In this document: in pieces, positions 2,548 through 25,533 of the stretch
How the letters are laid out: each line of letters opens with the position of its first letter
Numbering within the stretch: position 1 is the stretch's first letter
DNA from: a virus
Strand: one strand, 5' to 3'
DNA length: 25,533 nt
IMG/VR virus record: IMGVR_UViG_3300008448_000567
Coordinates: 1-25,533 of that record
Position numbers and translations under genes: made by a program
Notes under the pieces: generated by a model
The model's input: the letters and a program-made list of their open reading frames with translations, nothing else
The model's database searches: none
Told to the model about the DNA's origin: nothing

Positions 2548-5500
2548 ATGTCAAAATCAGTAAGATTAAGAACTCAACTTGGGAAAGACCAATCATTAAC
2601 ATTCGACTTGAATCAGGATTTCGAATTCATAGAAATTCTTTCATTGAAACTTTCCCAAACTGAAATATATACAAGAACGTGTGCTGATTATGGAGTTGTA
2701 GTCGGAAGAATATCTATCAACAATGGATTCGGAGTTCCTAATGCCAAATTATCTATTTTTGTGCCAATTACCCCTGAGGACGAATTTAATCCGGTTATTA
2801 GTGCTATTTATCCATATAAAAGTCCTGAGGAAATCAATGAAGATGGCTTCAAATACAATCTTTTACCTTATAAACCATCTTATCCTGGTCATTCTGCAAC
2901 GGGTTCATTTCCTGATTTAGAGGATGTTTTGACTAATTCTACTGCGGTAGAAATATTCGATAAATATTACAAATTTACCGTAACCACAAATGATAGTGGG
3001 GATTTCATGTTATTCGGGGTACCAACAGGGTCACAAAATCTTGTTATGAATGTTGACCTTTCTGATATAGGTCCTTTTTCACAATCCCCTCAAGATTTAA
3101 TAAGATTAGGATTAGCGACCGATAGTCAAGTAGATGGTGTAACGTTCAAAACATCCGAAAACTTATTTACTCTACCACAAATAGTAAGTGTCACACAACA
3201 AGTGACTGTGAATCCTCTTTGGGGTGATGAAGATTTGTGTCAAATTTCAATTACAAGAGCGGACTTAGACCTAACTCAAACTAAAAATATAGAGATTAAG
3301 CCAACCGCAATTTTCATGGGTTCCATATTTTCAGATTCCGATAGGGGTGCAATCAAGAAAAATTGTAAACCACCTATAAGGTCAGGAAATATGTGTGGAT
3401 TAGGTGCTGGACCAGGTCAGATACTTGCAATTAGACAAACTATCAAACAAGATTCCGAAGGTAGACCAGTATTAGAACAATTCAAGTTAGAAAATAATGG
3501 TAATGTAATAGATGAAAATGGAACTTGGTTATTAGATGTGCCTATGAATTTGGATTACATCATAACTAATGAGTTCGGAGAACAAGTATTTTCTAACGAC
3601 GAAAAAAAAGGAATACCTACAAGAGGTAAATACCGATTCAAAGTTAAATGGAACCAATCACCTGATTTGTCGTTACCGATTAGAAGAGCAAATTTTTTAG
3701 TACCAAATATTAAAGAATATGGGTGGTTACAGGATAACAATGACCCTATTGAGTATTCAGTCAATGCCTCCAATTACAAATTATTGAAAGCGTCTTATGC
3801 TTTCAGTTTAGATTGGAACGACTACGGTCTTACTGGAAATACCATCGGAGAAAGTATGATACAAGAAGCTATCGATTGTAAGGATAGATTTTTTGATATG
3901 TCTTATAACAAAGTTTATACGATATCTCAATTGATTACAAGATTTACAAAAGGTTTTTTGAACAGAAGATATTCAGGGATAAAAAATATAACAGACGATG
4001 AGTGTGAAAGTACAAGTAATAGGTTTCCAACTAATGACGCGCAATACAAACCTGATTTATTATTCGTCTTTTTTTCATTCACGATAATTTTTATCAGTAT
4101 AATTTTTAGACGTATTGTACTTTATCTACACGTTTTTTGTAGATTTTTTGAAATTATTCTAAATTTATTAGAAAAAATAGATAGGGCTCCTAGACCTGTA
4201 CCATCTATGTCAGGTCCTATAAATGCTGTGAAGGGAATCCTGAAAACATTATCAGGATTCAATTTACCTCTTTATACTTTTCCTGACTGTGAATTATGCA
4301 GTTGTAAACCTGAGGGTGAATCCGCTGATGCTGTTTCTTTAGGGATACCACCAACTCAACAACAATCTCCTTTTAGGAATAATAGTGTATTGGCGGATTT
4401 AATTAGTGCTGAGCAATATGCTCCTGATGCTACCAACGGTTCTACTGATTTTACAGAAGTTTTACAACCAATGTTTGCAGGATTTCAGTCATCAAACATC
4501 AGTAGGGGTTTCACTTTTAGAACTCCAGGGATTTTACAATTTACAAAAGAAGAGGCATTTGACCCAGAAGCAACAAGAACGGATTTCTATTTTTCCATGA
4601 CAACCCCTTTGCACGAAAGAATTAATTTACAAAACGCTAAATCAAAATTTTTCGGTTCAGGTCTAAATAGAAATAAAATAGAACCAATATATGAAGGTGT
4701 TTTAAATTCGTCAACAAACATATCAAACGCAAACAATCTGTATTATTTAGGTGGTGGTACCACACAAATCAAAGTCGCTTTCAACACACAACTTAACCCA
4801 CCTAATCAGAATTGGGACTTTGTTTATAACGGGTCGACACAAAAGTATGAACCAACACCGTTACTAAATACTACAGTATATAATAACAATAACCCTAATA
4901 CATTAGGTTATCACTATGATAACATATTCGTTTTATTAACAGAAAATCAATATGAAAAGGGTTCACTTTTAACTTTCGATAATCCATTTAGTTATAATGA
5001 TGTTAATTTATCTGGTACCGTTTCTAATCAGTTTGGTACAAGTTCAGTAACGGGTACTTCATTAAATAATGGCAACACGTTCATTAATGTAAGTCACACA
5101 CATCCCATCACAGGTAAAAGACTTGTCACAAGGTATCAAATTTCAGGGGACTCGACACAAAATCAATTTTTACGATTCCCAACAGGTATAGAATATTTCC
5201 AAGTTGTAGAGTCTATAAGTGTTGGTGAGTATATGTTAAGATATAACAATGCTTGGGATGTTGATATGCAACAACTCTCATTCAAAAATAGAGTTTTTTC
5301 CCCTTGGTCTCAAATTGGTTACTTAGGTGTTACACCACCCGCAAATATTAGCCAAATTTGTTGGAATTGGGGTTATTGGAATGGTTGGGATGCTTATCAA
5401 GACCAAAGTAATGTTTATATTACAATTATGATGAGGGGTGTTGACCCACACTCAACTTCTCAACCTATGAAAATAGGTTTAGGTAGATTTTTTGGTAAGT

Positions 5501-15583: not shown

Positions 15584-17881
15584 ATGCCTTGTTCATATAG
15601 TTTTAATCAATTTTCAGTAACAGGGGACTGTGAAAATAACGGTTCAGGAGGTTTTACACTTTATTTATCCTCGACCTCTGAACCTATGAGTATAACTTGG
15701 TTGTTACCAAACCCATACCCACCAGGTATCGGTGGACCACAAGTTGAGACTCCGATTTATAATGGTTCATATACATATGTTGGGGTTCCGGCTGGAACTT
15801 ATGTATTTACTGTCAACGATAGTTGTGGAAGTCCCACCGTAACGACTGAAAATAACAGACAAACTATAAGTATAACGGTTTCATCAGGTACATCTTGTGT
15901 AAACATAGGTAATGTTGTGAATACGAGTTGTGGTCAAGATAATGGTTCATTAGAGGCTACGGTTGCAAATACTAATGGTACTGTAACATATAGACTATAT
16001 TTAGAAAATAATAATAACAGAGTCACTCCTGTAGAAACACCACCTAACGAACCATCAGACCCTGACCTCATCAGATTAGAAGTTTTAGATTCCGATGTAT
16101 TTGTGTTTGAAAATCTACCTTATGGTATATATTACGTAATTGCTGACGACGGAGGTGGTTGTACAGGAAGAAGTGAAAACGTAATAATACAATCATCAGT
16201 CGGAATTAACTATGGTACTTACGTAGTAAATGATGCTGATTGTGGAAATGTGGCAACAGGTGTTGGTAAGATATTGGTGACAGGTTTGACAGGTACTCCA
16301 CCTTATACATATTTGTGGCAAGGAGTTACAAGTCCACAGTATTTGATAGATACGGGACAAAGTTTGACGGGAAGTTCTATTACTGGACTTACGGCGGGAT
16401 TTTATTCAGTTCTTATTACCGATTCCAAAGGATGTGAATTATCCACAACCGTAGAAGTAATAGAAAAACAACCAGTATCCATTGCGACAGTAAGTTCTAG
16501 TCCTCCGACTTGTTTTGACACTAATGGTTCAATAACAGTAACGGTAATTAATGGTACAGGTCCTTACAGATATAGTATACCATCTTTACCATTTACAGAT
16601 ATAAGTTACTCTCAAACATATACGTTCAATAATTTACCTGGTGGTTTTTACCAAGTATTTGTTACGGATGCCGCCTTATGTTCTGATAATGAAACGACTC
16701 AAGTAAATCAATCTAATAGTTTTGCGATTAGGAGTATAAATACAACACCTCCGACCTGTGGAAATTCAAATGGTTCCTTGACCGCAACTATTGTAGGTAA
16801 TGCTAGTGCCACTTATACGTATATACTCAGTGGAGCAAACGGCTCTGTACAAACTTATTCAGGTTCATTAGAGAGAACATTTAATAATTTAAGTCCACAA
16901 AATTATTTACTTACGATAACTGACGGAGTTTGTACATACACAAATGTTTATGACTTATCAAGTCAGTCTTTATTCACGATTACAACATCAATTACTGGAA
17001 CAACCTGTGGCAACAATAATGGTGCAATTACAATTACTAAGTCAACAGGCGGAACAGCCCCATTTATATTCTCAATTCAAGATAATTTAGGTAACAACAA
17101 TCAATCCTCATCCAACACATCTTTAAGTTCCTTTACATTTAATAATTTGGCAAGCGGGTCTTATATAGGATTAGTTGAGGATAGTAAAGGTTGTGAAGAA
17201 TACGTATACTTCGATATAGATGATAGTGAAAACGTATACTTTATTTTGATACCAACAGACTCAACAACAGGTTCAAATGGTCAAATACTTGCTAATATAT
17301 TCCAAGGTACACCTCCCTTTACACTTACATGGTCATCAAATGTAAATAATCAAACAGGAACTACAGTTACAAACCTCTCGGCGGGTACTTATACCCTCAC
17401 AGTTCAAGATTCGGCAGGTTGTGTTTTATCTAATTCTGTAACCTTACAAGGCAATTATGTTGCATCGAATTTTTCAGTCTTCAACATATGCGATAGTACA
17501 ATAGCATCAACAGATGAATTGACTGAAAGAACACTTGGAAAAATGTTGGTTGAAGGATATATAGATTTAACATCAGGTTGTACTAATTGTTTGATGAATT
17601 CGGCAATTTTCTCTGCAGTAACTACTGTTGCTGGAAGTGCGTTTACTCAATCATTCTATACTGCAACAACATTAAATACAGTACCGAGTGAATCTTTATG
17701 GGCGTCTACAGTACAAACTTTACTAAGTGGTGTTACAGGTGTCGGAACTGTGACTATTAACACAAATGATAATACAATAACGGTTGATACGGATTGTGAA
17801 GAATCAACTAACGGTCTTGCAAACCAAAATATAGTGGTACAATTAAAAATTGTTTACGACATAGATTGTGAAAGTTGTTAG
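15584..17881 (+). CDS. SprB-repeat adhesin-like tail protein
   Basis: A 765-residue protein made of about seven tandem Ig-like units of 75-100 residues, starting near residues 1, 106, 208, 299, 380, 464 and 551. Typical units have C-x(2-4)-NGS/A near the start, a TPPYTYLW / GPYRYSI / TPPFTLTW strand, then a NLPGGFYQVFVTD or LSAGTYTLTVQDSAGC end. This is the pattern of SprB repeats, known from Bacteroidetes gliding adhesins and secreted surface proteins. The C-terminal 140 residues form a different domain that resembles the C-terminus of the upstream 992-residue protein. There is no signal peptide, T9SS sorting domain or membrane segment, so virion association is more likely than secretion. 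It is probably a tail fibre or adhesin that contacts the host surface. It ends in TAG, 3 bp before the next ATG. Confidence 0.75.
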   Translation: MPCSYSFNQFSVTGDCENNGSGGFTLYLSSTSEPMSITWLLPNPYPPGIGGPQVETPIYNGSYTYVGVPAGTYVFTVNDSCGSPTVTTENNRQTISITVSSGTSCVNIGNVVNTSCGQDNGSLEATVANTNGTVTYRLYLENNNNRVTPVETPPNEPSDPDLIRLEVLDSDVFVFENLPYGIYYVIADDGGGCTGRSENVIIQSSVGINYGTYVVNDADCGNVATGVGKILVTGLTGTPPYTYLWQGVTSPQYLIDTGQSLTGSSITGLTAGFYSVLITDSKGCELSTTVEVIEKQPVSIATVSSSPPTCFDTNGSITVTVINGTGPYRYSIPSLPFTDISYSQTYTFNNLPGGFYQVFVTDAALCSDNETTQVNQSNSFAIRSINTTPPTCGNSNGSLTATIVGNASATYTYILSGANGSVQTYSGSLERTFNNLSPQNYLLTITDGVCTYTNVYDLSSQSLFTITTSITGTTCGNNNGAITITKSTGGTAPFIFSIQDNLGNNNQSSSNTSLSSFTFNNLASGSYIGLVEDSKGCEEYVYFDIDDSENVYFILIPTDSTTGSNGQILANIFQGTPPFTLTWSSNVNNQTGTTVTNLSAGTYTLTVQDSAGCVLSNSVTLQGNYVASNFSVFNICDSTIASTDELTERTLGKMLVEGYIDLTSGCTNCLMNSAIFSAVTTVAGSAFTQSFYTATTLNTVPSESLWASTVQTLLSGVTGVGTVTINTNDNTITVDTDCEESTNGLANQNIVVQLKIVYDIDCESC

Positions 17882-17884
17882 AAA

Positions 17885-18625
17885 ATGCAAAATATAGTTA
17901 TATCATCAATAACAGGTCTAACACCCCCATATTTAATTTACATATGTGATGCTTTAGGTAATAATTGTCAATTGGTAGAGACGATAACTTCTAATGTACC
18001 ACCGATTGATGTAATACAATTACCTGATTTTTTTAGCGGCGCTCCCTCAGTTTCTTTAAAGATTATAGAAACAAATGTTCCTTGTGAAAAAAATGTTGAA
18101 GTTGTCTGTTCCTACTTTGGAAATGTGTTATTTACATTTTGTAAATGTAGTGACTTAAGTATATGTAAATATACCGAAACAAATCCATTTTTGACTTTCG
18201 GAAGTGTGGTTTCATTATTGGAATATCCTGAATGTTGGTATTTTTCAGGATATCAATTTACAAATGAGGTGGGTGAAGTTTTAACAGTTAATGGTTTACC
18301 ATATTCCACTTGTCAAGAATGTTATGATACCGTTGCACCCTCATATTTTAGTGCATGTTGTAGTAATTATACATTCACATTTGATGAAACATTTCAGTCT
18401 ACCTTTGACCCCAACATATCTTGGTATGTTCAAATACCTCCATCAGGAACAGGGACAGGAACCGGATATACTGGTTGTACGGTTGTGATTAGTAATTATG
18501 AAACCCCAGACCAAACATACACACAATCCGATTGGAGTAATATAACTAATACAAGTTCTTCACCTGTTTTTCCATTTCCTACTATGAACAGTTGTGATGA
18601 CTGTACCGAGGTCAATCCTTGTTAG
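17885..18625 (+). CDS. Multi-module Cys-rich tail adhesin protein
   Basis: A 246-residue protein of at least three short modules. Module 1 (about 1-75: NIVISSITGLTPPYLIYICD, later NNC, LP and LKIIETN) is clearly homologous to the complete 78-residue protein encoded on the minus strand at 24946-24710. Module 2 (about 80-150) has CWYFSGYQ and ends in a CQECYDT motif. Module 3 (about 155-246) has CC, WYVQIP, TGCTVV and a final CDDCTEVNPC, and resembles the N-terminus of the next gene. The paired cysteines may bind metal or form disulfides. The family is unnamed to me. Position between the SprB-repeat gene and another adhesin-like gene suggests a fibre-associated role. It ends in TAG. Confidence 0.65.
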   Translation: MQNIVISSITGLTPPYLIYICDALGNNCQLVETITSNVPPIDVIQLPDFFSGAPSVSLKIIETNVPCEKNVEVVCSYFGNVLFTFCKCSDLSICKYTETNPFLTFGSVVSLLEYPECWYFSGYQFTNEVGEVLTVNGLPYSTCQECYDTVAPSYFSACCSNYTFTFDETFQSTFDPNISWYVQIPPSGTGTGTGYTGCTVVISNYETPDQTYTQSDWSNITNTSSSPVFPFPTMNSCDDCTEVNPC

Positions 18626-18664
18626 GTTTTTAATAAACCATATTAGATAAAATAGGTATTCAAA

Positions 18665-18672
18665 TATTTATA
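18665..18672 (+). promoter_or_regulatory. TATTTATA motif before the 538-residue gene
   Basis: TATTTATA lies in the 90-bp gap 18626-18715, 43 nt before the ATG at 18716, which is a normal promoter-to-start distance. The rest of the gap is A/T-rich with a TTTTTTTG stretch and no convincing terminator hairpin. Of all copies of this element, this one has the most promoter-like spacing. Confidence 0.4.
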
Positions 18673-18715
18673 ACTGACAAAACAGAATTATTTTTTTGTT
18701 TAAAAGTTATTTTTA

Positions 18716-20332
18716 ATGGCAACATCTTATTTAAAATCCTGTTGTGATAGTAGTGTCACATTTATTCTAACCGGTTTAGGTGCCTCGCTTCCTTTAGGAA
18801 ACGTTTACTACACACAAATACCTAACTACTTCACGGGTTGTTCAGAAGTAGTATCAACTGTTTTACCCGGTGCTCCTACTTACTCGTCTGTTGGTTCTAC
18901 CCTGACTAATTTCGCGAGTTGTGCAAGTTGTATAAATACTAATCCATGTATTAGGATTACTGCAACAAGTGAGTGTGATGTTGTTACTAAATTTCCTATG
19001 GGAATAGAATGTTTACCGAACATTACCGCATCTACAATAACAATAAATGTCACAGGTGGAACTCCTCCCTACAAGATAGTTTGGGCGAACGGATTCCAAG
19101 GACCTGTTTTATCAAATGCCGTACCTGGTCTTTCATATAGTGTTACAGTAACAGACTATAGTTGGCCAGGAGGTGGTCCTGATTATACCGCAACAACAGT
19201 GTGTACTTTAGCACCACCAACACCCACACCATCTGTTACACCAACAATGACCCCATCTGCTCCCGCCTCTAACACAACATTTTTGTGTTTACAAGTGACT
19301 AAGGGTGGACAAACCACAACATATAATTTCACACCATCAAATACTAAAATTAACGGGAAATTTACATGGACTTTTGGGGCCTATCAACTAAGCTGGCAAT
19401 TAACTCCAACTCCTTCGTGGCAAGTGACCATACCAATAAGTGGAATTTCGGTCTTATTTTTAAACCAAAATCCTTCTTCACCGCCATTAGGGACATTCCA
19501 ACTGATAGGAGCCGCGGGAACCGCAGTTATGACAAATGGTGTGTGTGGAAATATTACAATGACATTGGGTTCACCAAACATACAAGCACCTGTTTGTGAA
19601 AATCAACCAAATACGGGTTCTATATATATTAATACCTTAAATGCTCAATCACCTGTATTATATTCTATCAACGGTGGAATTACAACACAATCTAATCCTT
19701 TCTTTAACAATTTATCTAGCGGGAATTATAATATTTGGGTACAGGACGGAGGCCCAACAACCCTTACTCAAGTCGCTACGATTCCAGTTGCAGGACAATC
19801 AACAAACTATACATTGGATATGAACTCCAATATTATCAATCAGGGGTCGAATTCCAAAATATTAAACTTCACTGTTATAGTTCGTGATGAAAACGGTAAC
19901 CAAGTTACGTCACTACCAACTGGAACACAAATTTCATTTGTGATTAATCAAACTAATATTTTCAATATAACTACACCAGGTGGAGGTTCAGTTGTTAAAG
20001 TGATTAATATCAAGAAAAATGGAGTAACTCAAAGTTTGACTTTTAATGATAACATAACGACATCAACAACGTCCGCAGTTCCTCAGTGTGGTTCTGGTTT
20101 GATTTATACAACGGCAACAACAAGGACATTCCAACCGATTACAATAACAGGTACTGATGTTGTGACTGGGTCAGTACAAATACAACTTAATAAAACAATC
20201 ACACCGATAATTTGTGTGTTCACATCTCAAGATAGTTTTTCATTAAGTAATCCACAGATTACTGGTTGTAGTTGTTGTAATATAAATGGTTCTTTACCAA
20301 CTGTTAATACAACTTCCACTTACGGTAGATAA
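18716..20332 (+). CDS. Modular adhesin-like tail protein with SprB-like repeats and Pro/Thr linker
   Basis: A 538-residue protein. Residues 1-85 form a Cys module (SCC, GNVYYTQIP, TGCSEVV, then CASCINTNPC) homologous to the C-terminal module of the preceding gene. An SprB-like Ig unit follows at about 107-167 (GGTPPYKIVWANG, then SYSVTVTDYSW). A Pro/Thr/Ser linker at about 166-185 (PPTPTPSVTPTMTPSAPAS) matches the linkers of the minus-strand adhesin. A second SprB-like unit lies at about 288-355 (NTGSIYIN, SPVLYSINGG, FFNNLSSGNYNIWVQDG). The C-terminus ends with GCSCCNINGS. There is no signal peptide or membrane segment. It is probably part of the receptor-binding apparatus; this is inferred from domain type and neighbours. 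Confidence 0.65.
   Translation: MATSYLKSCCDSSVTFILTGLGASLPLGNVYYTQIPNYFTGCSEVVSTVLPGAPTYSSVGSTLTNFASCASCINTNPCIRITATSECDVVTKFPMGIECLPNITASTITINVTGGTPPYKIVWANGFQGPVLSNAVPGLSYSVTVTDYSWPGGGPDYTATTVCTLAPPTPTPSVTPTMTPSAPASNTTFLCLQVTKGGQTTTYNFTPSNTKINGKFTWTFGAYQLSWQLTPTPSWQVTIPISGISVLFLNQNPSSPPLGTFQLIGAAGTAVMTNGVCGNITMTLGSPNIQAPVCENQPNTGSIYINTLNAQSPVLYSINGGITTQSNPFFNNLSSGNYNIWVQDGGPTTLTQVATIPVAGQSTNYTLDMNSNIINQGSNSKILNFTVIVRDENGNQVTSLPTGTQISFVINQTNIFNITTPGGGSVVKVINIKKNGVTQSLTFNDNITTSTTSAVPQCGSGLIYTTATTRTFQPITITGTDVVTGSVQIQLNKTITPIICVFTSQDSFSLSNPQITGCSCCNINGSLPTVNTTSTYGR
19211..19269 (+). repeat. Pro/Thr/Ser linker-coding low-complexity stretch
   Basis: This codes for APPTPTPSVTPTMTPSAPAS inside the 538-residue protein and separates an SprB-like unit from the downstream domain. 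The 11-mer CCAACAATGAC at 19241-19251 is repeated in inverted orientation at 23462-23472 and 23513-23523 within the linker-coding part of the minus-strand adhesin gene. Confidence 0.7.
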
Positions 20333-20349
20333 TAAAAACTAAAATGACA

Positions 20350-20357
20350 TATTTATA
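20350..20357 (+). promoter_or_regulatory. TATTTATA motif before the 749-residue gene
   Basis: TATTTATA sits in the 29-bp gap after the TAA at 20330-20332, with only 4 nt between it and the ATG at 20362. Like the copy at 162-169, it is too close to serve as a conventional -10 element for this start codon. Confidence 0.35.
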
Positions 20358-20361
20358 TTAA

Positions 20362-22611
20362 ATGGCTTATATATTAAAAAATACTTCGGGGTTAATTAAC
20401 ACAAGAATTACCGATACAGGGAGAGAAAAGATGTCTCAAGGAAATTTCAAAATAAGTTATTTCCAAGTCGGGGACAGCGAAGTTTCATATAACGCAATCA
20501 CTAATTTTAATCAAACCAATACAGTAATTTTAGAGCCATCTTTCAATTCGGCAAATAGCGCTCCAGTACCATCCGCTAACGTTCAAAATATAAAATATCC
20601 ATATTATGTGGATGGTTCATCAGGCTCAACCTATGGTATTCCTTTTATGGATTCAGTTGTGTCAGACGTATTCAATGTGGCACCCATGAGAGGTTTTTTT
20701 AGTGCTGATACAACAACACTACCCACAAATTGGTACGCAAGGACAGGTAGTGAATATGTCAAAACACCAAATTATGAAGTTGACATTAGTACTTTAAGTT
20801 TCAATCAAAACACTATTACTGTAACAGAAAACGTTTGTAATACCGCTTCGACTTATACTTTTTCGGCTGGAGATTTCATAACGATTTATTATCAAACAGA
20901 TACTTCCTGTAGTTGTATATACACACCGAGTTCAGGTACCTGTTCCCCACCATATTCACCATATAATCCTTGCCCACCGGTCCCACCAACCGACAGAAAT
21001 TGTTTGTTGGGATTCCAAAGTTGCAATCCTATTTTGACTTATCGAGTAGTTAGTGTTGCCGGCTCAACATTAACTTTAGATAGAGATGTAGTTGACTACC
21101 TCCATATAGGTTCAATAGGAAATGCGAGAATATTGGTATATCCATCAGGGATGACTAATTTTTATGATAGTGCAACACCTGAACCACATTGGAATCAAGA
21201 CGTATTGAATTTTCAATCAGTATGTGACATAGATATGTTTAATGTAAATGTTTGGAATATGAACATACCTTGGAGCGAAAACCCTGCAGGTCTGAATGGT
21301 TCTACACATCAAGATTATAGTCTTTTTGGTTCAGTAAATTATTTGGGTAGTAAAGAATACTTTGGATATAGTAATAGTCAAGGACAAACAGATAGTAGTT
21401 CAGTATATTATTATAATTCATTAGGTGACCAAATTATAGTACCAGGAAAAGACCAAAAAGCGGTAGCGATAATTCATTACACGAATAATACGATAGATTT
21501 TGTTTATGGTGAAAAGTTCGCGTTACAACCGTATGATGCGGAAAATATAACAAATACGGTTGGTATGGCTAGAAACTTCAGACTTCATATACCAACATTA
21601 CAATGGCATAAGTCTAGTGGTGTTTGTTGTTCAGGTCAAACCTTCTATGTCGACCCTGAGGGGTTTGATGAGCAAGACTTGTTTCAAGAACATTATCTAA
21701 CATCCAATTTGAACATCGATATGAACATACCTGGTCACAGGTATTATCATCTATGGGATACTTATCCTAATCCTGACGGTAATCCAAGTAGAATAGGAAA
21801 GGTTTTCCCTGACATTCATACAATAGTAATCGATGACGAGGAAATAATCGCGGCAATGTCTTATAAATCAAACAGGAATTGGACATTACCGGCTCCGAGA
21901 ATCTCCTCAATAACCCCTGATGGTTCAGAACCTGGTGTACTGACCAACAATAATCAATATATGTATGTTACTTACCGGTTCAGTACCAATTTAGAATTTA
22001 CAAATTCACTACATTGTAATTATTATCAAAAAGTTCAAGGACCTAATACCGGATGTACAACTGTATCACAAAATGTTTCATTAAGTTTTGGAAACGAATT
22101 CGGTTGTTTACCAAGTACTTCACTTTATGACTCTTTCCAAATAATCTGTCAAAAAGTTAGTGGTGATACAAGACCTAATTCGAGTGATTGGAGAATAATA
22201 GATGTAACATCACAAATGTCCGCATTTACTTTGAATCAACTGACTGCCACTACATTTGTTATCACCGACGCTCTATATAATGCCGCAGGTACTTATGATT
22301 TAAGTTCATATATAGATTTAACAAGTGTAGGTCAAACTGGTAATACACTAAATTTTGGAGACGAATATTTCTTTTATGGAAATGTAGAGACAGAAATTCA
22401 GGCAACAATATATGAGATGAGATACCTATGTAATTTAAGTCAAAATGAATTCACATTTACTTCTAATCCTACATGGTCTGCAGGAACTACTTCATACGTG
22501 ACCGAGATTGGATTGTTTGATGATAATAGGAATCTAATGGCGATTTCAAAATTACAATCACCAATACAAAGGCAAAGTATTCAACAATTCCTTGTCAAAC
22601 TCGATTTCTAA
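20362..22611 (+). CDS. Fibre or baseplate-attached structural protein with split attachment domain
   Basis: A 749-residue protein. The N-terminus (LKNTSGLINTRITDTGREKM, then SQGNFKISYFQVGDSEVSY) resembles the attachment domains found at the start of phage fibre proteins, which follow T-x-x-G-x-x-x-(M/L)-(A/S)-x-G ... I-x-Y-x-x-V/F-G-D. The C-terminus (TSYVTEIGLFDDNRNLMAIS, then a LVKLDF end) has the E-I/V-GLFD signature that usually closes the same fold. The two ends may therefore form one domain with a large insertion of about 550 residues. The insertion includes a Cys/Pro-rich loop at about 178-220 (CSC, CSPPYSPYNPCPPVPP, NC, SCNP) and a section with IVIDDEEIIAAMSYKSNR. It follows the adhesin cluster, consistent with host-recognition structure. 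No homologue is named here. Confidence 0.65.
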   Translation: MAYILKNTSGLINTRITDTGREKMSQGNFKISYFQVGDSEVSYNAITNFNQTNTVILEPSFNSANSAPVPSANVQNIKYPYYVDGSSGSTYGIPFMDSVVSDVFNVAPMRGFFSADTTTLPTNWYARTGSEYVKTPNYEVDISTLSFNQNTITVTENVCNTASTYTFSAGDFITIYYQTDTSCSCIYTPSSGTCSPPYSPYNPCPPVPPTDRNCLLGFQSCNPILTYRVVSVAGSTLTLDRDVVDYLHIGSIGNARILVYPSGMTNFYDSATPEPHWNQDVLNFQSVCDIDMFNVNVWNMNIPWSENPAGLNGSTHQDYSLFGSVNYLGSKEYFGYSNSQGQTDSSSVYYYNSLGDQIIVPGKDQKAVAIIHYTNNTIDFVYGEKFALQPYDAENITNTVGMARNFRLHIPTLQWHKSSGVCCSGQTFYVDPEGFDEQDLFQEHYLTSNLNIDMNIPGHRYYHLWDTYPNPDGNPSRIGKVFPDIHTIVIDDEEIIAAMSYKSNRNWTLPAPRISSITPDGSEPGVLTNNNQYMYVTYRFSTNLEFTNSLHCNYYQKVQGPNTGCTTVSQNVSLSFGNEFGCLPSTSLYDSFQIICQKVSGDTRPNSSDWRIIDVTSQMSAFTLNQLTATTFVITDALYNAAGTYDLSSYIDLTSVGQTGNTLNFGDEYFFYGNVETEIQATIYEMRYLCNLSQNEFTFTSNPTWSAGTTSYVTEIGLFDDNRNLMAISKLQSPIQRQSIQQFLVKLDF

Positions 22612-22622
22612 CCCAATTATTT

Positions 22623-22635
22623 ACAATTCAATTGT
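22623..22635 (+). promoter_or_regulatory. Short perfect palindrome, possible operator, before the resolvase gene
   Basis: ACAATTCAATTGT is a perfect inverted repeat with 6-nt arms around a central C in the 45-bp gap before the RuvC-like gene. It overlaps the next element, TGTTTATA. Such a site could bind a dimeric regulator, but short A/T palindromes also arise by chance in DNA this A+T rich. It is too short and weak to be a terminator. Confidence 0.2.
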
Positions 22636-22640
22636 TTATA
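22633..22640 (+). promoter_or_regulatory. Variant TGTTTATA motif before the resolvase gene
   Basis: TGTTTATA, one base different from TATTTATA, lies 16 nt before the ATG at 22657, in the same orientation as the gene. Spacing is close to that of the copies before the 1776-residue gene and the minus-strand 78-residue gene. Confidence 0.3.
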
Positions 22641-22656
22641 TTACCATAGTTATTAT

Positions 22657-23262
22657 ATGGCAAAACAACAAATCAAAAACAACCCGAAAGTATTAGGTTT
22701 AGATGTTAGTACAAAAACAATTGGATGGGCTCTGTTCGATATGATGACTGAAGAATTATTAGAACTAACTCACATTTCCCCTATAGCAAAACTTAAGGAA
22801 GAAAATAAAATGAAGGAGTTGTTTTTAAAGGCAGAAACATTCAAACAAAAACTAATTCAATATAAAAATTTAGGTATAACAAAAGTTATAATCGAAGAAC
22901 CTCTTTTGAATTCAAATAATGTTTATACTATCCAAACTCTTATGAGATTTAACACCCTTATATCTAAAGAGATTTATGACATACTTGGTATCGTGCCCGA
23001 GTACATCTCAACCTACAATTCAAGAAAATTTGCTTTTCCGGAGTTAGTTAAAGAAAATGATAAAGGTAAATTTGTATTGTTTGGTGGATTGCCAAAAGAC
23101 ATAGATAAAAAAATGATTATTTGGGATTTGGTGGCGAAAAAAGAACCACAAATCAAATGGCAGTATACAAAAAATCAAACACTTAAGAAAGAAAATTTCG
23201 ACATGTCAGACGCATATACCTGTTGTTTGGGTTATATGAAACAAGAAGAACTTTGGAAATAA
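22657..23262 (+). CDS. RuvC-like Holliday junction resolvase
   Basis: A 201-residue protein of the RuvC / RNase H-fold resolvase superfamily, which cuts branched DNA; in phages this trims replicative concatemers before packaging and supports recombination. Residues 12-25 (VLGLDVSTKTIGWA) hold the first catalytic Asp (D16) on strand 1. VIIEEPL (77-83) supplies the acidic Glu (E80/E81) of strand 4, and FDMSDAYTCC (181-190) supplies the last acidic residues (D182/D185) of the C-terminal helix. Length is close to that of bacterial RuvC. It is transcribed with the structural block and meets the minus-strand adhesin gene tail to tail with no spacer (TAA then CTA). Its position is the junction between virion and replication genes. 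Confidence 0.8.
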   Translation: MAKQQIKNNPKVLGLDVSTKTIGWALFDMMTEELLELTHISPIAKLKEENKMKELFLKAETFKQKLIQYKNLGITKVIIEEPLLNSNNVYTIQTLMRFNTLISKEIYDILGIVPEYISTYNSRKFAFPELVKENDKGKFVLFGGLPKDIDKKMIIWDLVAKKEPQIKWQYTKNQTLKKENFDMSDAYTCCLGYMKQEELWK

Positions 23263-24705
23263 CTACCCTATTTGAGCGGGTGGACAAACTACCTCACCAT
23301 TTATTGTTGTGAATGTTACAACACCTGATGCGTCAGTATTCAAACCCGGTGCGTTACTTGGTGTTATAGTTGGTGTTGGTGATGGTGTGGGACTGACATT
23401 CTGAACTCCAAAACAAAAGTTGACAACCTGACAAACATTTCCTGAAGGAGTTGGGCTAGGTGTCATTGTTGGGGTTGATGTTGGTGCGGTATAACCCGAT
23501 GTTGGTGTTACCGTCATTGTTGGAGTAATAGATGGTGTTGGTGGAGCAATGTCACAATCAAAATATGCTTGAATGTCTAAAATACTACAATCACTTGTTG
23601 GTGATGGAGTTGGGGTAGGACAAATGTTATTAACAAAAAACTCATTTGCTAAGTTTGGAGTTGAACTAGAACATCTATTACCACCAAACAAAATACATGT
23701 ACCACCAATTGATGTGGATAAACACCATCTTGTTTGACCCGTGTTATAGTAAATCACACCACCGTTATCTCCAACGTACACAGTGTAACCATCGTATGTA
23801 CCACCTGATGTGTAATTTCCGTCATATTGTGATGTTGAAAAATATCCTGTAGATAAACAATAACTGGCAGCCGAATAGTTAAAGAATGATGTGATAGAAC
23901 CTGGTGATTGACTGAATCCGGTGTAACTCGAGTTTCCGAAATCAAAACCATTTGTGAAACCAGTATTAAATATGTCAACCTCGACCTCTATAGTATTCGG
24001 ACCAATATTATCCAAACCCATAAAATAGGTTTTACCCGAATATTCAACAGTACTTAATATTTCTGTATAAGTCGTGTTATCAAAAGAAAAATCATTAACT
24101 AATGTTCCACCGGTTGTGAATTCAGATATATAATTTAAAGTTTTATCGGCTTTCATACAAGCCACAACAAATGTGTTTTTAAGTGAATTGTATGATATAT
24201 CATTTATTGTTCTTGATTCAGGTAATGTAAATAATAATTCACTTGTAAAACCTGAACCTGTGATAGTATGTAAGTAAATTGTTGAACCCGAACCACCGAC
24301 CAACGTAGTATTATCCAAGGCACCTAAACCTTCAAATGCTGTAACACCACTTGATGTTAAAAGTCTATTAAAAGTTGTAGCGGGAAAATCTGAAAAAAGT
24401 CCAGTAAATAAAATAGGAGACAGTTCTAAATCAAATTCAACTAAGTCAGTACCACCTGTGTAGACCCAAATTTTGTTCAGGGTATTTGCAACCTCGCTGA
24501 CATCACCACCTAATATAGAACTAATATCAATTTGATAATCGGTATTAGGATTGAAGTATCCTATTTTTGCACCATTTACATAAAATACTGACGCAGAATT
24601 GAAACATATAAATGTTGTTGATGCTGAGGTCCCTGTATAATCACCGGAACCATCATTTGCTAAGGACCAATTTGTTATTGAACTACTACAATGACTACTA
24701 CTCAT
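23263..24705 (-). CDS. Minus-strand adhesin-like protein with Pro/Thr linkers
   Basis: A 480-residue protein. The start is ATG at 24705 (MSSSHCSSSITNWSLANDG), 4 nt after the upstream gene's TAA; the frame is also open to a GTG at 24735. Residues about 1-270 show repeated beta-strand patterns (NKIWVYTGGTDLVEFDL, STIYLHTITGSGF, NTFVVACMKADKTLNYIS, KTYFMGLDNIG) that could be a beta-propeller-like binding domain; this is tentative. Residues about 275-365 form a Cys/Tyr/Gly module (SYCLSTGYFS, SGGTYDGYTVYVGDNGGVIY, RWCLSTSIGGTCILFGGNRC). The C-terminal 110 residues hold three Pro/Thr/Ser linkers around short Cys segments (DCSILDIQAYFDCD, CQVVNFCFG). There is no signal peptide or anchor. It is probably a fibre or decoration protein. 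It is read against the rest of the late block and ends in TAG abutting the resolvase stop. Confidence 0.65.
   Translation of the reverse strand: MSSSHCSSSITNWSLANDGSGDYTGTSASTTFICFNSASVFYVNGAKIGYFNPNTDYQIDISSILGGDVSEVANTLNKIWVYTGGTDLVEFDLELSPILFTGLFSDFPATTFNRLLTSSGVTAFEGLGALDNTTLVGGSGSTIYLHTITGSGFTSELLFTLPESRTINDISYNSLKNTFVVACMKADKTLNYISEFTTGGTLVNDFSFDNTTYTEILSTVEYSGKTYFMGLDNIGPNTIEVEVDIFNTGFTNGFDFGNSSYTGFSQSPGSITSFFNYSAASYCLSTGYFSTSQYDGNYTSGGTYDGYTVYVGDNGGVIYYNTGQTRWCLSTSIGGTCILFGGNRCSSSTPNLANEFFVNNICPTPTPSPTSDCSILDIQAYFDCDIAPPTPSITPTMTVTPTSGYTAPTSTPTMTPSPTPSGNVCQVVNFCFGVQNVSPTPSPTPTITPSNAPGLNTDASGVVTFTTINGEVVCPPAQIG
23346..23622 (-). repeat. Pro/Thr/Ser linker-coding low-complexity tracts
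   Basis: Three tracts (roughly 23346-23395, 23435-23550 and 23588-23622) read as GTTGGTGTTGGTGATGG-type sequence on the plus strand and code on the minus strand for linkers such as SPTPSPTPTITPS, TPTMTPSPTPSG and CPTPTPSPTSDC. The 11-mer GTCATTGTTGG occurs at 23462-23472 and 23513-23523, and in inverted orientation at 19241-19251. Confidence 0.7.
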
Positions 24706-24709
24706 ATTT

Positions 24710-24946
24710 TTAACATTCAGGATAAGTTGAACCACTTAGTTTAGTTACTGAACACCCGTTGGAGTCAATAATTTTGACCGCAAAATCCGATAAACTAAGG
24801 TATATGTAGGGTAATTCAAAACTGTAAGGAATTTGCCCACTTGTAAATTGAGAAACCCAAGTACAATTTGTAACATTATCATCACATACATACACATTAT
24901 AGGGAGATTGTCCGGTAACACCACTAATAACAATATTTGTTGGCAT
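24710..24946 (-). CDS. Stand-alone 78-residue Cys-containing module protein
   Basis: A 78-residue protein beginning MPTNIVISGVTGQSPYNVYV. It corresponds end to end to the first module of the plus-strand 246-residue protein at 17885: both have NIVIS, a TG-x-x-P segment, Y-V/I-C-D, an NC pair, LP and KII-D/E-x-N followed by Cys. So one gene is a single module and the other is a fusion. It is the first gene of a two-gene minus-strand unit, followed after 4 nt by the adhesin gene. Function is unknown; a small fibre-associated or chaperone-like role is possible. A TATTTATA copy lies upstream on its own strand. Confidence 0.65.
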   Translation of the reverse strand: MPTNIVISGVTGQSPYNVYVCDDNVTNCTWVSQFTSGQIPYSFELPYIYLSLSDFAVKIIDSNGCSVTKLSGSTYPEC

Positions 24947-24962
24947 ATTTTAAACTTATGAT

Positions 24963-24970
24963 TATAAATA
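24963..24970 (-). promoter_or_regulatory. TATTTATA motif on the minus strand before the 78-residue gene
   Basis: The plus strand reads TATAAATA, so the minus strand reads TATTTATA, 16 nt before the ATG at 24946. The motif keeps the same orientation relative to its gene as on the plus strand, which argues for function. It lies in the 86-bp divergent gap shared with the primase promoter. Confidence 0.4.
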
Positions 24971-24996
24971 TAACAGGTACCAAAAACTTGTGAATA

Positions 24997-25027
24997 TTGA
25001 TTGGGTTTAATTTTTATTGTATATTTG
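24997..25027 (+). promoter_or_regulatory. Bacteroidetes-type promoter for the primase gene
   Basis: TTG at 24997-24999, a 20-nt spacer and TATATTTG at 25020-25027 match the Bacteroidetes housekeeping promoter (TTG near -33, TAnnTTTG near -7). The predicted transcription start falls about 4-7 nt after the TTTG, at or next to the GTG at 25033, so the mRNA would be leaderless or nearly so. This promoter type contrasts with the TATTTATA element of the structural genes and fits early expression by host RNA polymerase. Confidence 0.5.
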
Positions 25028-25032
25028 TATTT

Positions 25033-25533
25033 GTGCAAGACGAACAAGAAATAGTTGTAGATATCGTTAGAGGGTTCTTGGGTAAAGAAAAACTCCACTA
25101 CGAAAGTAAGGGACAATATTCCTTTAACTGCCCCTACTGTGACCAAGCCCAAAACAAAGGTAACTTGGAGGTCAACGTATTCAAACATGTTTATAAGTGT
25201 TGGGCCTGTGGAGACTCTAACGGAACTCACGGAGCACTTGGAAAACTCATTGATGAGTTTGGAACCAAAAAACAAAAGAAAATTTACTCTTTATTCAAAC
25301 CCGAAGAAGAGAAAAAACAAGAACCAAAAAAACCGAAGTTCAGATTACCCGAAGGTTATACACAATTCAAGGACTCAAACCCGGTTTATCCTGTTTACAA
25401 ACAAGCAATCAATTACCTTAAAGAACGAAACATCAGTCAAGAAATTATAGAAAAATATAAAATAGGATTCTGTGACCAAGGTGATTTTATGGGAAGAATT
25501 ATTATACCCTCCTTTGATAAAGACGGAAATCCA
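25033..25533 (+). CDS. DNA primase, N-terminal part (runs off the window)
   Basis: The first 167 residues of a DnaG/T7-type primase, which makes RNA primers for lagging-strand replication. A four-Cys zinc ribbon is visible: CPYC at 33-36 and CWACG at 56-60, within a typical YSFNCPYC ... VYKCWACGDSNGTHGALGKL context; this C4 form resembles phage primases more than the bacterial CHC2 form. A Lys-rich linker follows (about 85-110), then the start of the catalytic region: YLKERNISQEIIEKYKIGFC and GRIIIPSFDKDGN. The start is taken as GTG 25033, because no in-frame ATG occurs before the zinc motif; a TTG at 24997 is less likely as it overlaps the promoter. The catalytic TOPRIM residues lie outside the window. 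Confidence 0.8.
   Translation, partial: MQDEQEIVVDIVRGFLGKEKLHYESKGQYSFNCPYCDQAQNKGNLEVNVFKHVYKCWACGDSNGTHGALGKLIDEFGTKKQKKIYSLFKPEEEKKQEPKKPKFRLPEGYTQFKDSNPVYPVYKQAINYLKERNISQEIIEKYKIGFCDQGDFMGRIIIPSFDKDGNP

Follow-up and report, generated by a model that had tools for sequence, protein, structure and literature searches.

A small protein domain, previously unnamed and recognisable from its sequence, marks the start of proteins of the adhesin region in large uncultured phages. In the stretch of DNA analysed here (hereafter the window), a 25.5-kb piece of an uncultured virus contig, this module occurs twice, as a stand-alone protein of 78 amino acids (aa) on the minus strand and as the N-terminal part of a 246-aa protein on the plus strand. 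The stand-alone protein may be a structural adaptor of the virion, made together with the adjoining adhesin, a reading to which we assign a probability of about one half. What is new here is the family itself, together with its restriction to N-termini and its association with a locus of adhesin exchange. Ig-like domains on phage proteins are already well known (PMC8718954, PMC13370021), and domain shuffling in phage proteins is known as well (PMC10684548).

The 78-aa gene (24710–24946, minus strand; conserved domain at residues 4–65, 24752–24937) is the first of a two-gene cassette between the genes for a primase and RuvC. Its partner is an adhesin-like gene of 480 aa (23263–24705, minus strand), which starts 4 nt past the module gene. 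Residues 1–279 of this partner (about 23869–24705, minus strand) form a segment without counterpart in two relatives, and residues about 280–477 (23275–23868, minus strand), with PT-rich linkers, are kept in the adhesin-like genes of many relatives. The cassette is convergent with a gene for a RuvC-like Holliday junction resolvase (22657–23262, plus strand) and divergent from a DNA primase gene (24997–25533, plus strand). The latter carries the DnaG zinc ribbon/N-terminal domain, continues past the end of the window and probably has its true start at about 25033. In the 246-aa protein (17885–18625, plus strand), the module takes up residues 3–67 (17891–18085) and is followed by Cys-rich segments. 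Directly upstream lies the gene of a 765-aa SprB-repeat protein (15584–17881, plus strand), the repeats of which are distant relatives of the module; downstream is a 538-aa adhesin-like protein (18716–20332, plus strand) with a SprB-like segment and a PT-rich linker. Both reading frames were found where the original prediction had placed them, and the setting of both is indeed an adhesin-gene neighbourhood. The T4-like baseplate genes gp25 (173–631) and baseplate J (637–2475) were assigned by Pfam, and baseplate J shares about 27% identity with the baseplate wedge protein of Flavobacterium phage immuto, a distant kinship.

The likeness of the two copies is real and goes beyond chance. By BLASTP, the stand-alone protein aligns with residues 3–64 of the 246-aa protein at 39% identity over 62 residues, with an E-value of 4e-9 for this single pairwise comparison; phmmer gives an E-value of about 1e-9. 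Aligning the profiles of the two sets of orthologues with hhalign yields a probability of 97.8 and E 9.6e-13 over 61 columns. AlphaFold2 predicts one and the same strand pattern in the same register for both copies, with strands at residues 4–7, 16–22, 28–34, 41–44, 55–60 and 66–70 of the 78-aa protein (pLDDT 86) and at 3–6, 16–22, 28–34, 42–45, 56–62 and 68–73 of the fused module (pLDDT about 60–78); the model of residues 151–246 of the longer protein is unusable. The homology had been proposed to run end to end, up to residue 75, which is slightly overstated. The shared domain covers about residues 4–65 of the 78-aa protein and 3–67 of the 246-aa protein, and the last ~12 residues of the former have no convincing alignment to the latter. 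Between the two copies as DNA, blastn finds just chance words of 7–10 nt, and the duplication is therefore old.

A search for further copies in viral contigs, by a DNA pattern scan followed by hmmsearch, recovered at least 180, of which at least 136 are distinct. The pattern replaced the whole-family alignment for the collection scan, as that alignment is too diverse, and the census is a lower bound. Going upstream from the module, an in-frame stop or a contig end is reached within 39 residues in all 136 distinct copies, and the module starts 2–7 residues after the start codon in 133 of them. Another 20 copies, held out from other parts of large contigs, are N-terminal without exception (20/20), one of them opening a frame of 3795 aa. 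Thus, 156 of 156 copies examined are N-terminal, the in-frame stop lying at most 63 residues ahead of the module. Two cysteines of the module are invariant and a third is nearly so. Each of 19 contigs of 115–295 kb holds two to four copies, and among the modules classed, 81 are stand-alone and 45 fused. A tail like 'ILTEDGFGLETEDGFTLVF' closes the stand-alone copies of about 95–105 aa (L045, L046, L059, L118 and L148), and direct pairs of module genes also occur (at these same five loci).

Sequence searches of Pfam, PHROG and the PDB returned no match for the family, tblastn with four members as queries returned none among isolated phages, and 0 of 58 pattern stretches in bacterial genome contigs were confirmed as the module. 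Three proteins of uncultured Caudovirales phages in UniProt/BFVD, A0A6J5L5Q5 (73 aa), A0A6J5L892 (334 aa) and A0A6J5L8W1 (92 aa), have the same fold at 28–36% identity (E 7e-8 to 1.5e-5). They repeat the stand-alone, long and ~92-aa forms of the family, and their annotation is only 'uncharacterised'. In a maximum-likelihood tree of 132 modules, which rests on 62 columns so that its inner detail is unsure, the deepest supported split (support 100/96) separates the two copies of the window. The side of the 78-aa protein is referred to as clade I and the other as clade II; 20 loci hold members of both.

The predicted structure of the 78-aa protein is a small all-beta domain, and several of its best fold matches in the PDB are Ig-like or FN3, the best with E 0.06 and none reaching E 0.001. 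Ig folds are small and common. The fold matches hint that the module may be a small Ig-like domain, with a predicted beta-sandwich. With the modules masked, since an unmasked iteration absorbs them, a profile of the phages' own SprB-type repeats matches the module profile in hhalign with a probability of 91.6 and E 8e-7 over 59 columns; column-shuffled controls reach at most 2.5 and reversed ones 0.1, and unrelated families also fail. The similarity spans the whole module and includes the pattern G..PY...V.D..GC. Unlike the module, which is single in each protein and N-terminal only, with its two invariant cysteines and a nearly invariant third, SprB repeats are tandem and internal. The Pfam SprB family (PF13573) has no match in the 78-aa protein, the 246-aa protein or any of 16 members scanned. 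By these profile comparisons, the module is most readily understood as an N-terminal specialisation derived from SprB-like repeats, with a remote kinship to them.

Other known domains resemble the module in part. Ig-like families on phage virion proteins include FN3, Big_1, Big_2 and PKD/Hoc (Fraser et al. 2006, cited in PMC8718954). They are small beta-sandwiches, the fold tentatively predicted for the module, and like it they are reused on several proteins of the structural region in fused or separate form. However, the known tail-tube examples are mostly C-terminal, some being added via a programmed frameshift, whereas the module is strictly N-terminal, is often a separate gene and has no sequence match to FN3, Big_1, Big_2, PKD or Hoc. 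The BACON domain of Bacteroidota phages (PMC13370021) is Ig-like, as the module may be, and is often N-terminal and part of modular phage adhesins. The module differs from it in its conserved residues and in having a stand-alone gene coupled to an adhesin, and no match to Pfam BACON was seen among the family members scanned.

The cassette layout is repeated in distant phages, where a small module gene is followed by an adhesin-like gene and then by RuvC on the opposite strand, with the primase assigned by Pfam. The gene downstream of stand-alone copies lies on the same strand in 75 of 76 readable cases; it is usually no more than 30 nt away, and stop and start often overlap. The proteins encoded downstream in the cassettes reach 1455 aa. 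Only 9 of the 210 pairs from 21 such proteins, some of them cut by contig ends, align over 60% of the longer one; the adhesin thus varies strongly between phages, while the small gene stays. The part that recurs is the ~200-aa region of the partner (residues about 280–477 of the 480-aa protein), Cys-rich and with PT linkers, which begins anywhere from position 1 to 1080 in the adhesin-like proteins of relatives. It adjoins 43 of 48 clade-I modules vs 3 of 68 in clade II (Fisher 1.7e-22), and 24 of 27 vs 3 of 35 after removal of redundancy at 70% (p 7e-11). In the two relatives scanned (L046 and L087), Pfam has no match for this region.

A promoter-like element, TTCACAAGTTTTT-N9-TATATTTAT (24964–24994, minus strand), precedes the 78-aa gene. 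It is unique within the window, with none expected by chance, and the TTCACAAG...TATATTTAT element is recognisable before the small gene at 24 of 24 orthologous loci. In 1.0 Mb, TATATTTATA occurs 34 times in sense orientation upstream of genes and 0 times in antisense. The shorter TATATTTAT is also found upstream of gp25, of a gene of the 749-aa family and of adhesin-like genes. The form TATATTTAT(A), present in the window at 160–168 and 24964–24972, is strongly sense-oriented upstream of virion genes and behaves like a late-promoter-like element of these phages. As a motif observation, this fits expression of the cassette together with the virion genes; the module genes also lie among those for baseplate and adhesin proteins.

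How might such a module be used? An attachment module would be expected to stand, as this one does, strictly at the N-terminus of proteins that are otherwise unrelated, and a gene of its own next to an exchanged adhesin is in keeping with an adaptor that can be separated. Also in favour of an adaptor are the homology of the copies, the synteny, the coupling of clade I to one adhesin region, the interchange of fused and stand-alone states, the shared promoter-like element and the kinship with SprB repeats. In the adaptor reading, the module would be used only at the N-terminus of proteins of the tail/adhesin region in large uncultured phages, and the cassette of module and adhesin would be read from a virion-type promoter-like element. 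The 78-aa protein would be incorporated into the virion, where it would occupy an attachment position, hold the adhesin encoded next, or both. A covalent form of this attachment would be seen in the 246-aa protein and in many others, where the module and the protein that it presents are one chain. Such docking and adhesin binding by the 78-aa protein are what we infer from gene order and domain placement.

Some of the arrangements speak against the adaptor. The order is reversed in 13 clade-I stand-alone cases, with the linked adhesin upstream of the module. Many stand-alone copies of clade II adjoin a glycosyltransferase or a fibre-like gene, so that an adhesin partner is not universal. The clear fusions mostly bring the module together with partners other than that of the cassette, so that support for one and the same partner being split from it in one case and fused to it in another is weak. 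In favour of the adaptor, on the other hand, are two clade-I modules, one fused to a PT-linker protein in L151 and one in L127 whose fused segment shows a weak relation to the 480-aa partner (E 1e-4 against the G004 orthologue of that partner).

It is conceivable, though unlikely, that the 78-aa protein is instead an assembly chaperone, comparable to tail-fibre assembly proteins, which folds or trimerises the adjoining adhesin and stays outside the virion. The close pairing of a small gene with an adhesin gene that varies, in either order, would suit this role; but the module is a permanent N-terminal domain of proteins of up to 3795 aa, its kinship with SprB-type structural repeats suits a structural part better, and it has no match to known chaperone families in Pfam or PHROGs. 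Equally, there is some small chance that the copies act on their own, each as a surface decoration or adhesin of a minimal Hoc-like or BACON-like Ig type that binds glycans, with other late-region adhesins as its neighbours. Binding to carbohydrates or mucus is frequent among the Ig-like domains of phages (PMC13370021, PMC8718954), several module copies are present per genome, and some of them adjoin a GlcNAc-type glycosyltransferase. Neither the strict N-terminal position nor the clade-specific coupling to one adhesin region, however, would be expected of an independent binder. As regards the glycosyltransferases, many clade-II module genes (L097:4627-5871, L094, L154, L077, L141, L112 and others) are directly followed by one of the GlcNAc type (PF11397, E 2e-70 for L097); this adjacency might raise the idea that the module or its neighbours are glycosylated.

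The adaptor reading can be extended, tentatively and with less confidence, to a plug-in system. An N-terminal Ig-like adaptor, separate or fused, would fit a fixed attachment site on the particle, and the whole adhesin gene could be exchanged at the primase/RuvC locus with the attachment part unaltered. This makes the swapping of adhesins with a kept attachment part a testable idea. The data indicate a conserved locus at which adhesin-like genes are exchanged, and the module offers a handle for candidate receptor-binding genes in otherwise unannotated phages.

The pair in the window had been taken as direct evidence for domain mobility across an inversion, and this did not hold. Both positions are ancestral and kept in five related contigs; in 5 of 5 of these close relatives (IMG/VR contigs), the two genes have the same order and relative orientation, and an origin of the pair by inversion is not supported. 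The layout of the minus-strand locus, with the primase divergent and RuvC convergent, is kept in far more distant phages, and the position of the fused copy directly behind a SprB-repeat protein also recurs in other phages. Across the relatives of the window phage that carry both genes, identity in the module region is 63–97% among orthologues of the small gene and 67–90% among those of the fused one, vs 28–46% between the two copies. Their placement on opposite sides of the deepest split means that they diverged before these phage lineages did. Judged by orthologues and tree, the two copies are ancient paralogues at two ancestral positions, and no recent event is recorded in them. That the module was recently duplicated or transposed between the two genes, across an inversion, was rejected as extremely improbable, for although the copies are oppositely oriented and 39% identical, the conserved positions in near and distant phages, the tree split and the absence of DNA similarity all stand against it. 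What survives of the mobility claim is the switching between stand-alone and fused states across the family. Well-supported branches force at least 8 changes of state, and the best tree has 16; by this count, modular reuse is real at the family level.

A whole-domain change is also seen in the cassette itself. Two relatives, G002 (30845–31477) and G003 (4535–5140), lack the first ~280 residues of the adhesin, although G004, the sister of G003, has them. By this comparison, the gain or loss of these residues is a genuinely recent whole-domain change of the neighbourhood. A programmed frameshift that would join the 78-aa and 480-aa frames was considered and rejected; relative to the module, the partner gene is read in a frame that varies among relatives, with an offset of 1 in G000 and G004 vs 2 in G002 and G003, and it has its own start. 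Near the fused copy, a weak resemblance (E 0.016) links the C-terminal ~95 residues of the 246-aa protein (18335–18622, plus strand) to the N-terminal ~78 of the 538-aa protein (18716–18950, plus strand). The likeness lies in a CC...C..C pattern and suggests a possible second small repeated module, at the end of the one protein and the start of the other.
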